Shown: positions 23,139 to 25,517 of the stretch, piece after piece
Numbering within the stretch: position 1 is the stretch's first letter
How the letters are laid out: every line of letters begins with the position of its first letter
Origin: Thiomicrospira sp.
GTDB lineage: Bacteria > Pseudomonadota > Gammaproteobacteria > Thiomicrospirales > Thiomicrospiraceae
Direction: 5' to 3'
NCBI RefSeq assembly: GCF_014859555.1
Contig: NZ_JACUTY010000015.1
Span: forward strand, 1 to 39,206
DNA length: 39,206 bases
The notes under the pieces: model-generated
Database searches by the model: none
Told to the model about the DNA's origin: nothing
Seen by the model: only the letters and a program-made list of their open reading frames with translations
Program-made: the position numbers and the translations under genes

Positions 23139-24107
23139 ATGATGTCGACGCAACAAGCCTTTATGGGGTTAAAAACCCATTTACAAAAAACCATTGTGGG
23201 TCAAGAAGCCTTATTAGAGCGCATGATGATCGCCATGTTAACTGGCGGCCATGTGTTATTAGAAGGCCCACCAGGCCTGGCGAAAACCACCGCGGTGAAA
23301 ACCTTGGCGAAGGGCGTGCATGCGAGTTTTCAACGCATTCAATTTACACCGGATTTAATGCCCGGTGATGTAATGGGCTCGGATATTCTCGACCCCAACA
23401 CCGGTTCGCTCAGTTTTGTAAAAGGCCCGATCTTTAATGAAATCGTGTTGGCGGATGAGATTAACCGCGCGCCACCCAAAGTACAGTCAGCTTTATTGGA
23501 GGCGATGGCGGAAAAACAAGTTACCGCCGGCGGACAAACGCGTGCTTTGCCAGAATTGTTTATAGTAATGGCCACGCAAAATCCGCTTGAACAAAGTGGT
23601 ACTTATCCTTTGCCTGAAGCGCAAATGGACCGTTTTATGTTGCATGTGGTGCTGGACTATCCAACCGAAACCGAAGAGTTGGAAATTCTGCGTCGTGATC
23701 GCGCCAAACACTATGGCATAGATAAAGAAGCCGACACCTCAAGCTTAACACCGCAAAACGTATTGGACGCGCGTCGTGAAGTCGCTGAACTACATGTTGC
23801 CGAACCGGTAGAAAAATATCTGGTGGCGTTGGTCGCCGCCACCCGTAAGTTGGATGAACTCGATGACACACTTAAAGCTGTGCTGGATGTAGGCGCCTCG
23901 CCACGGGCCTCGCTCGCTTTATTGCATGCCGCCAGCGCTTATGCCTGGTTGCAAGGTCGTGACTTTGTCACCCCGGATGATGTGGCAAGATTAGCGCCCG
24001 ATGTATTACGCCATCGTTTAGCCCTCAGTTTTGCTGGCCGCGCCCAAGGTTGGACGCCCGATCAATTGATCGCCCGGTTATTAGAACTGGTCAAAGTGCC
24101 GGTTTAG
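23139..24107 (+). CDS. MoxR family AAA+ ATPase
   Basis: 322-aa AAA+ ATPase of the MoxR group, which acts as a chaperone-like partner of VWA-domain proteins. Walker A GPPGLAKT at 43-50, Walker B IVLADEINRAPP at 102-113, sensor 1 MATQNP near 145-150 and the C-terminal lid with DVGASPRAS are intact. ATG 23139 or 23142 follows AAGGAATTC. It starts a bat-type (aerotolerance) gene set; the next set gene is separated from it by a DUF559 insertion. A CCAGGCCTGG copy lies exactly in the Walker A codons (Pro-Gly-Leu). Confidence 0.93.
   Translation: MMSTQQAFMGLKTHLQKTIVGQEALLERMMIAMLTGGHVLLEGPPGLAKTTAVKTLAKGVHASFQRIQFTPDLMPGDVMGSDILDPNTGSLSFVKGPIFNEIVLADEINRAPPKVQSALLEAMAEKQVTAGGQTRALPELFIVMATQNPLEQSGTYPLPEAQMDRFMLHVVLDYPTETEELEILRRDRAKHYGIDKEADTSSLTPQNVLDARREVAELHVAEPVEKYLVALVAATRKLDELDDTLKAVLDVGASPRASLALLHAASAYAWLQGRDFVTPDDVARLAPDVLRHRLALSFAGRAQGWTPDQLIARLLELVKVPV
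23271..23280. repeat. CCAGGCCTGG palindrome in moxR Walker A
   Basis: Exact 10-mer, flanks A...C; read Pro-Gly-Leu within GPPGLAKT. Confidence 0.85.
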
Positions 24108-24116
24108 TTAGCTACA

Positions 24117-24152
24117 CCCCTCCCTTGATGGGAGGGGGCTAGGGGCGGGTGA
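24117..24152. repeat. Left inverted repeat of the DUF559 cassette
   Basis: Begins with CCCCTCCCTTGATGGGAGG and continues to CGGGTGA. It is the reverse complement of 24535-24571 apart from one substitution and one extra G. Each arm also folds on itself (CCCTCCC/GGGAGGG). It starts 9 bp after the moxR stop. Confidence 0.85.
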
Positions 24153-24182
24153 ATTGCAGTTGTGTAACTGGTAGTAAATAAG

Positions 24183-24578
24183 ATGCTAAAACAAAACCCA
24201 AAATTGACAAACTACGCAATAGATATGCGTAAAAATCCAAGTGATGCGGAGGATAAGTTATGGTCTTTTCTGCGTGCAAAGCGTTTTGAAGGGTTGAAGT
24301 TTAGACGACAGCAACCTTTGCAAAACTATATTGTCGATTTTGTGTGCCATGAAATTAACCTGATTATTGAGCTAGATGGCGGTCAGCACAATGAAACTGA
24401 AATGATAAGTTATGATCAACAAAGAGCAGCAAAGTTTGAGGAAGCGGGTTATCAAGTGCTTCGGTTTTGGAATAATGATGTGCTGATGAATACAAACGAT
24501 GTTTTGGAAGCGATACGTTTAGTGTGCTTGCAGCTCACCCGCCCCCTAACCCCCTCCCATCAAGGGAGGGGGGAGTAA
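24183..24578 (+). CDS. DUF559 endonuclease-like protein, cassette gene
   Basis: 131-aa protein of the DUF559 family, related to very-short-patch-repair and restriction-endonuclease folds. Family features: MRKNPSDAEDKLWSFLR, RRQQPLQNYIVDFVCHE and the catalytic-type IIELDGGQH with downstream FWNNDV. Role unknown; members are often found alone between repeats of this type. The last residues (LTPSHQGRGE) are encoded by the right inverted repeat. It interrupts an otherwise tightly overlapping operon and its codon use looks more AT-rich than its neighbours, both consistent with insertion. Start ATG 24183 has no good ribosome site. Confidence 0.85.
   Translation: MLKQNPKLTNYAIDMRKNPSDAEDKLWSFLRAKRFEGLKFRRQQPLQNYIVDFVCHEINLIIELDGGQHNETEMISYDQQRAAKFEEAGYQVLRFWNNDVLMNTNDVLEAIRLVCLQLTRPLTPSHQGRGE
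24535..24571. repeat. Right inverted repeat of the DUF559 cassette
   Basis: Reverse complement of the left arm. It encodes the DUF559 C-terminus, and its GGGAGG run, with the four bases after it, serves as ribosome site for the next gene. Confidence 0.85.
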
Positions 24579-25517
24579 GTGCGTTCTATTTTTAAATTCT
24601 GGCGTAGTTCGGCTATAAACCAACACAATATCAGTCAGCAACCGATTCTGTCGGCTCAGCAAATTGCGGATTGGGGGCAGGAGCTGGAGGCTTATTGGGC
24701 GAGCTTGCCGAGTTCACAGCGTTTAAGTGAATTGGCATTGTTTGGCGACCAATCCAGTCGTTTTCGTGGTCAGGGCATGGAATACGAAGAAAGTCGTTTA
24801 TACCAGCCAGGCGACGAATTGCGCCATCTTAATTGGCGATTAATGGCGCGTACCGGTAAAGCCTTTACCAAGCTGTTTCAGGAAGAACGTCAGGCGCAGT
24901 GGGTGATCTTACTGGATCAGCGTCAGTCAATGCGTTTTGCCACCCAGGGTCAGCTAAAAGTCACGCAAGGGGCACGAATTGCAGGTTGGTTAGCCTGGAT
25001 GGCACAGCAGCAACGAGTGCAAATTCAAGCCATCGGCCTAAGCGAAACCGTGTCGATGACACCGGTGATTCAGGGAATGAATTTGTATCAGCAAGTCATG
25101 CAGGCGTTAGCGATTCCTTGTCCGCCCACAGCCGATCAAGTCGAACCTAAGTTAGCGGATGTTTTAAACCAGCTTAAAGCCCATTGGCCGAATGGCACAC
25201 GGGTTTGGATCATTAGCGACTTTGCCGACTTAACCGAATCCGACCAGGCCTGGTTGACGGCGATGAATCAATCCTGGCATTTAAGTGCGTTTTGGATTGA
25301 AGACCCAGCCGAAGTGCAATTACCCGCCAAGCAGCCATTAAAACTCCAAACCCACCACCAGGCCTGGTTGTTAGATAATCAACAACAATCTCAATACCAA
25401 GCTTGGGCAAAACCCCAACGCGATAAGCACCAGGCCTGGTTAAAACAAGCGGGCGTGGATGTGCATAACGTGCAAACCACCGATAGCTTACAACGCATAC
25501 TGGCCGCCGAATTATGA
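24579..25517 (+). CDS. DUF58 domain protein of the bat operon
   Basis: 312-aa protein with the DUF58 domain, a partner of MoxR ATPases with a VWA-like fold. Signature near 64-95: FRGQGMEYEESRLYQPGDE, LNWRLMARTGK, then a VWA-like core starting WVILLDQRQSM. GTG 24579 directly follows the DUF559 TAA, with GGGAGGGGGGAG (24564-24575) just ahead; this ribosome site belongs to the inserted repeat. The original start may have been different. It carries three ACCAGGCCTGGT copies within 200 bp (DQAW, HQAW, HQAW). Function in the set is usually envelope or complex maturation; no substrate can be named. Confidence 0.85.
   Translation: MRSIFKFWRSSAINQHNISQQPILSAQQIADWGQELEAYWASLPSSQRLSELALFGDQSSRFRGQGMEYEESRLYQPGDELRHLNWRLMARTGKAFTKLFQEERQAQWVILLDQRQSMRFATQGQLKVTQGARIAGWLAWMAQQQRVQIQAIGLSETVSMTPVIQGMNLYQQVMQALAIPCPPTADQVEPKLADVLNQLKAHWPNGTRVWIISDFADLTESDQAWLTAMNQSWHLSAFWIEDPAEVQLPAKQPLKLQTHHQAWLLDNQQQSQYQAWAKPQRDKHQAWLKQAGVDVHNVQTTDSLQRILAAEL
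25243..25254. repeat. ACCAGGCCTGGT palindrome in DUF58 (copy 1)
   Basis: Exact 12-mer; read Asp-Gln-Ala-Trp. Confidence 0.9.
25357..25368. repeat. ACCAGGCCTGGT palindrome in DUF58 (copy 2)
   Basis: Exact 12-mer; read His-Gln-Ala-Trp. The related palindrome CCAAGCTTGG (25397-25406) follows 29 bp later and also codes Gln-Ala-Trp. Confidence 0.9.
25429..25440. repeat. ACCAGGCCTGGT palindrome in DUF58 (copy 3)
   Basis: Exact 12-mer; read His-Gln-Ala-Trp, 72 bp after copy 2 and in the same frame. Confidence 0.9.

Follow-up and report, generated by a model that had tools for sequence, protein, structure and literature searches.

The repeat that Holder et al. (2015; PMC4666352) treat as the Box C, PIT or TM-ECO intrastrand triplex motif occurs in 23 copies in Escherichia coli MG1655, and the parts of that paper drawn on here call its origin unclear and its loci unstable, and relate that an earlier study saw no promoter or terminator activity in PIT motifs. 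Words starting with "nuclease" or "DUF" are absent from its main text. The DUF559 family member YcjD has been classed with the PD-(D/E)XK superfamily, close to Vsr, according to the relevant section of PMC1189080, and a DUF559-containing gene has been assigned to the EDxHD homing family in the portion of PMC9403480 consulted. Excerpts of PMC12907096 report that Caulobacter cells devoid of the cytosine methyltransferase ScmA require the DUF559 protein VsrA (CCNA_02930) for their SOS response, a need that fits DNA cutting in vivo. In the excerpted text of a Legionella evolution study (PMC12308824), a segment carrying a transposase and DUF559 is present three times, and its copies are hotspots of recombination. 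In the open-licence PMC literature searched, as far as its text was covered, neither DUF559 nor YcjD was connected with Box C.

The locus described here lies in the window, i.e., the whole 39,206-bp stretch of Thiomicrospira DNA that was analysed, and its features are collected in Table 1. It resembles the RAYT/REP system in that short palindromic repeats adjoin or flank an enzyme gene, inverted doublets without the gene are scattered over the genome, and enzyme and repeat are apparently matched. In contrast to RAYT, which is an HUH Y1 transposase, the enzyme of the cassette is a DUF559 protein with a Vsr fold, and in contrast to REP palindromes, its repeats are homopurine/homopyrimidine hairpins with a G-rich tail. 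The GTAG or CGTC tags named for REP sequences in the title of PMC3733652 are absent from the cassette arm sequences. The only Y1_Tnp match in the genome of the window is weak (E 2.2e-5), and the gene between the arms is DUF559. With Box C, as outlined in PMC4666352, the repeats share the same hairpin and tail, the window's own arms being a variant that misses the strict consensus. VsrA is a Vsr-like DUF559 protein as is that of the window, and has been investigated, per the excerpts of PMC12907096, for a repair function connected with DNA methylation.

Table 1. Features of the DUF559 cassette and its host genes in the window
Feature	Position	Strand	Length	Remarks
Upstream host gene, MoxR-type AAA ATPase (PF07726, PF20030; AAA_3, bpMoxR)	23139..24107	+		Pfam; TAG stop ends at 24107
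Spacer TTAGCTACA, moxR stop to left arm	24108..24116			No clear target duplication against the right flank
Cassette, two inverted hairpin arms around one DUF559 gene	24117-24571		455 bp	Between moxR and DUF58
Left arm	24117..24152	+	36 nt	Hairpin 24117-24137 (8-bp pyrimidine/purine stem, 5-nt loop), then G-rich tail towards the gene; Box C-like layout
DUF559 (YcjD family) putative nuclease gene	24183..24578	+	131 aa	C-terminus encoded by the right arm
Right arm, inverted copy	24535..24571	-	37 nt	Hairpin 24550-24572, with the tail facing the gene; arm shares sequence with the 3' end of the DUF559 ORF
Downstream host gene, DUF58 protein (PF01882)	24579..25517	+		Pfam; GTG start directly after the DUF559 stop

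The original prediction had described a 455-bp unit whose arms differ by one substitution and one G, holding a single DUF559 gene and separating moxR from DUF58. The letters bear out the unit and its arms (the left arm and the reverse complement of the right differ by one C/T substitution and one G), the single gene matches PF04480 (134.8 bits, E 1.3e-39, curated cut-off 20.6), and both host genes are confirmed by Pfam with the junction as described. A core hairpin pattern has four matches in the window, which are two places read on both strands each, and none in 100 dinucleotide shuffles; run over the full 39,206 bp, a general pyrimidine-loop-purine hairpin detector returns exactly two hits, and both are at the DUF559 gene. 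When held against the features of IS elements and MITEs, the cassette has inverted arms and no clear duplication, the flanks being too diverged to define the insert. As a side observation, the palindrome CCAGGCCTGG has 19 sites in the 39-kb window (1474 to 38943), several of them inside genes, against 0.01 expected in shuffles. This oligonucleotide's abundance is reminiscent of HIP1 of cyanobacteria.

The window protein carries all of the residues E23, R42, D52, E63, D65, G66, H69 and D78, each kept in 94-97 of 97 family members, as well as R94, kept in 94 of 96. The nearly invariant acidic and histidine residues are a putative active site with a predicted catalytic role. The predicted structure of the protein (pLDDT 83) has as its best solved folds 3hrl (Z 16.8), a sequence relative, followed by I-Bth0305I (3r3p, Z 12.4; Foldseek E 2.6e-4) and Vsr (1cw0, Z 10.3), such that the model points to a Vsr/EDxHD nuclease fold common to the DUF559 protein, I-Bth0305I and Vsr. 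Conserved residues, model and fold matches are all in keeping with where the cited section of PMC1189080 puts YcjD. The match to I-Bth0305I is to the catalytic domain of a homing endonuclease, and homing endonucleases are also among the weak matches in PHROGs. The 131-residue window protein has little beyond the nuclease domain, whereas I-Bth0305I has extra DNA-binding regions (PMC3943268, in the text consulted), and, unlike the case of that EDxHD homing endonuclease, no intron or intein is seen at the window cassette. A reading as a defence gene was set aside, as the PADLOC match is partial only, covering 63 of the 1078 positions of DpdF (E 9.9e-7).

Among eight other genomes of the genus, strong DUF559 matches are present in two, at the same junction in G003 and elsewhere in G008, both with the same kind of arms. 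The genome nearest to the window, G001 (moxR 96% and DUF58 91% identical), has an empty site with 8 nt from the moxR stop to the next ATG, and in G008 (moxR 91%) the moxR-DUF58 junction is likewise empty, the cassette lying at another place. The comparison at this junction proposed with the original prediction thus gave an empty site in G001 and G008, which means that relatives differ in whether this position holds the cassette; of the two signs sought there, the empty site was found and a clear target duplication was not. Between the window's genome (G000) and G003, identity is 67% for DUF559, 91% for moxR and 57% for DUF58, and for the copy at the same junction, old vertical inheritance with loss in G001 may be no less possible than separate gains. 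The hairpin core is present in G000, G003, G008 (at the cassette only), G004 (a genome 83% complete) and G007 (once, weakly), and absent from G001, G002, G005 and G006 by pattern search. DUF559 was not found in the incomplete G004 genome, though the hairpin core is present there.

A search of the window's own genome for DUF559 returned one match, and further copies of the repeat lie on its other contigs without DUF559, meaning that the repeat is dispersed and not confined to the cassette, as a search with and without the gene had been proposed to establish. Seven gene-less places were read: four are inverted doublets (L004, L005, L006, L008) and three are single (L013, L015, L016). In the doublets the tails face each other with 46-52 nt between the hairpins, and because these four places are inward-tailed doublets of the same layout, the cassette looks like a doublet in which a gene lies between the two hairpins. 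The window's repeats have the Box C layout, i.e., a pyrimidine-loop-purine hairpin plus a purine tail, as singles or inverted doublets. The strict Box C consensus (CCCTCNCCCN3-6GGGNGAGGGN3GGGNGAGGG) is matched by the gene-less L006, L008, L013 and L016, and loci spanning the window's arms (such as L001 and L009) are not among its matches. We also observed that the doublet halves in L004, L006 and L008 are of two subtypes, with CCCTCTCCC and CCCCCTCCC stems, resembling the rule of type A with type B given for E. coli doublets in the text of Holder et al. (PMC4666352) drawn on here. Separately, a second repeat (CCACGAAGGACACGAAG and its inverse) stands beside or around the gene-less repeats L004, L006, L008, L015 and L016. 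We take this second repeat to accompany GxxExxY nuclease genes elsewhere, a possible parallel pairing.

The arrangement is not a local oddity. With a hairpin defined as a pyrimidine stem of at least 7, a loop of 2-12 and a perfect purine partner, no more than 250 bp from the gene, 179 of 188 strong DUF559 loci in 105 proteobacterial genomes have one (122 on both sides, 57 on one side, 9 with none); weak DUF559 domains inside long proteins were left out. Taking one locus per genome (n=105) gives 64 with hairpins on both sides, 35 on one and 6 with none. Neighbouring ORFs (n=43) have a hairpin in 16 cases, 1 on both sides and 15 on one, with 27 having none; this control is small and near the same repeats, and is therefore if anything too high. 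The gammaproteobacterial set takes in, among the matches listed, those scoring above about 104 bits (with G381:C45, G208:C33 and G170:C1:3484743 left aside), together with three additional relatives of the window (G003, G008, G026). It has hairpins on both sides at 63 of 95 loci, on one at 26 and at none for 6, and the control positions offset by 1.3 kb gave 0 of 111 on both sides and 6 on one. For the other classes (the 17 non-gammaproteobacterial loci returned), 8 have hairpins on both sides, 9 on one and 0 none, against 0 of 33 on both and 2 on one at offset positions. A further 80 loci, picked mostly from multi-copy genomes and hence a non-random set, divide into 53, 24 and 3; four places common to these last two sets were counted once in the 188. 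The tails point towards the gene at the 188 loci by 161:12, with 128 unreadable, and hairpins of the same kind, judged by eye, lie beside most of 13 genes found by protein similarity. Across the sampled Proteobacteria, the pairing of DUF559 with Box C-type repeats is specific, oriented and largely matched by clade.

Arms and enzymes also go together in kind. The left and right arms of one locus have a similarity of 0.63 (n=122), against 0.36 (n=141) for arms of divergent paralogues, and paralogues in one genome often have different matched pairs of arms. In G125, for instance, two genes that are 50% identical differ in their arms, one being enclosed by the CCCTCTCCC type and the other by the CCCCCCTTT type; in G067, the same arm type is found at three nearly identical genes, and a fourth gene has another. 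Arms were closer to those of the nearest foreign relative than paralogues' arms are in 91 of 112 comparisons, the points not being independent, and in 60 of 65 at an identity of at least 60%. A within-genome arm permutation with a linear statistic was weak (559/5000), and the nearest-relative test was devised after it and should be weighed accordingly. The three G067 proteins are 96-98% identical, with the same arms at three places and a main DNA match of 534-638 bp. In the G067 loci concerned (L143, L144, L086 and L319-L328), these cassettes are enclosed by longer inverted repeats that end in a motif, AAAGGTATCTACACAAG, also found at places without DUF559 arms, such that the enclosing repeats may have carried the cassettes. 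The 9-bp duplications around these three cassettes were dropped as a candidate, as the outer motif and palindromic context recur without DUF559.

Repeat number was compared over 369 gammaproteobacteria with one repeat pattern, 78 of them with strong DUF559 and 291 without. At least three repeats are present in 50 of 78 genomes with DUF559 against 37 of 291 without, and at least five in 41 of 78 against 31 of 291, both being counts that ignore phylogeny. The within-family contrast is 28:6 with 5 ties, and 21:11 with 7 ties (p 0.11) after the harsh step of subtracting two arms per gene. There are 16 DUF559 genomes among the 78 without a match to the one pattern used, and 14 repeat-rich genomes without strong DUF559 (G049, G070, G080, G082, G127, G147, G197, G204, G297, G304, G322, G349, G364, G398), of which G082 has 50 copies of the pattern and no Y1_Tnp match. 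PF18741 was considered as an alternative enzyme in these 14 and rejected, with none over the cut-off and sub-threshold matches in four. With the pattern reversed as a control, at least one match was found in 28 of 78 DUF559 genomes against 39 of 291, a control that is not independent of the motif because mirror-like repeat variants match the reversed pattern. Y1_Tnp presence is also linked with repeat number (60/241 with it, 12/128 without), more weakly than DUF559, and the DUF559 link is found both in Y1-positive (35/59 against 25/182) and in Y1-negative genomes (6/19 against 6/109).

In E. coli K-12, YcjD (PRK09767) scores 167 bits against the DUF559 profile, and the published Box C no. 9 (1,351,204-1,351,239) is located in the fabI-ycjD interval, 168 bp away from the 3' end of ycjD (1,351,407), with a degenerate hairpin running through that 3' end. 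The gene is thus of the same DUF559 family as that of the window, with Box C at its 3' side; unlike the window's cassette gene, it looks resident, lying between fabI and sapF in the records opened. In E. coli FDAARGOS_943, a strict Box C overlaps the ycjD 3' end (L300, 664-698; ycjD 675-1040, at 366 nt 12 longer than in K-12), an overlap parallel to that of the window gene with its right arm. The ycjD region is covered to at least 80% in 3364 of 5426 genomes, and the nine genomes without it that were inspected have efflux genes beside fabI or sapF instead. These absences are in line with the part of PMC12817139 consulted, which reports ycjD in phylogroups A, B1 and C plus ST69 and ST182. Box C matches per E. 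coli record have a median of 17 with the locus (n=37) against 5 without (n=22), a difference confounded with phylogroup; records were scored as "with the locus" when a match covered 97% or more of Box C no. 9 plus flank, which stands in for ycjD, and one of 60 rows, a plasmid, was dropped. At three E. coli Box C sites where other strains lack the copy or have it cut down, no target duplication is visible. One E. coli control genome has no PF04480 match, although K-12 carries ycjD, and we assume it to be a strain without the gene. As a separate observation, two Box C doublets (L291 600-699, L293 448-532) share flanks, TTTTCT before and GGGGACYGAYCGAG after, and the repeat as published may therefore fall short of the full unit.

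Pairing, matching of arms, inward orientation, co-specificity, the link with repeat number and presence or absence between relatives were all observed by computation, and the reading of them that we prefer, at a probability of roughly 55%, is that Box C-type repeats have DUF559 as their cognate nuclease, in a RAYT-REP-like system with an unrelated enzyme of Vsr/EDxHD fold, the cassette being the gene-bearing form. The single-domain putative nuclease would recognise its own hairpin and G-rich tail, probably while the repeat is exposed as a single strand during replication, and would nick or cut there. Cutting would promote copying of short inverted doublets, gene-less and in many copies, and more rarely of a doublet holding the DUF559 gene itself. 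Counting against this reading are the VSP-type repair role given to VsrA in the one functional study consulted, the 14 repeat-rich genomes without strong DUF559, the 16 DUF559 genomes that do not match the pattern, the within-family contrast after subtraction, the weak permutation result, the absence of a visible target duplication, the dependence of E. coli counts on phylogroup, the repeats enclosing the G067 cassettes and the 9 loci of 188 with no hairpin. The original suggestion of a nuclease acting on its own repeats gains from the wide pairing, the inward orientation and the co-specificity as to which repeats are concerned; activity, substrate and spread of the repeats by DUF559 are what we infer beyond that. 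Going further, and more tentatively, at somewhat under even odds, cassettes of about 450 bp could be minimal autonomous mobile elements moved by a lone Vsr-fold nuclease, without a transposase or recombinase of known type, with Box C and related proteobacterial purine-rich hairpins as their non-autonomous offspring and each DUF559 clade having its own repeat.

The same nuclease could instead behave as a homing-type element that cuts existing gene-less doublets, with host repair copying the gene into the break and the repeats arising otherwise. The nearest folds beyond the sequence relative, a homing endonuclease catalytic domain and Vsr, would suit such an element, as would the EDxHD homing label given to a DUF559-containing gene in the consulted portion of PMC9403480, the homing endonucleases among the weak PHROGs matches and the availability of gene-less inverted doublets of the same layout in the window's genome and E. 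coli. Homing alone does not explain why repeats are more numerous where DUF559 is present, and the empty junctions of G001 and G008 have no doublet, though one could have been lost; we consider homing unlikely, at about one chance in five. A housekeeping role, less probable again, would have DUF559 perform Vsr-like repair, either of the VSP type or by trimming hairpin or triplex structures of the repeats, with the repeats tolerated and the gene kept beside them. This draws on the Vsr fold, on the instability of Box C loci noted in the cited parts of Holder et al. (PMC4666352), and on the proposal by its authors that VsrA carries out VSP repair in connection with a solitary cytosine methyltransferase (PMC12907096, excerpts), the text examined of the latter containing no link of VsrA to hairpin repeats. 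It leaves unexplained both why the gene is so often between a matched, inward-facing pair and why paralogues in one genome have different arms.

That DUF559 is a bystander, hitch-hiking on repeats spread by another enzyme such as a RAYT, seems improbable to us: Y1_Tnp does have its own link with repeat number and 14 genomes are repeat-rich without strong DUF559, but the DUF559 link is kept among Y1-positive and Y1-negative genomes alike, and the arms track the DUF559 protein. We give hardly any credence to the arms serving to terminate transcription of a small cargo gene or to insulate it, since there are 0 terminator-like sites in 24050-24650 and hence none at the arms. The GC-rich arm hairpins do fold stably, but the earlier study cited in the available text of Holder et al. 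(PMC4666352) had PIT motifs without promoter or terminator activity, and both the tail orientation and the enzyme-specific arm sequences would be left unaccounted for.

Taken as the cognate enzyme of these repeats, DUF559 suggests itself as an overlooked family and the missing partner of the long-known Box C repeat. A candidate enzyme makes the origin of Box C testable in E. coli K-12, where ycjD adjoins Box C. If the pairing is what we propose, a widespread family of "unknown function" would gain a role, and REP-like repeats could be served by an enzyme unrelated to RAYTs.
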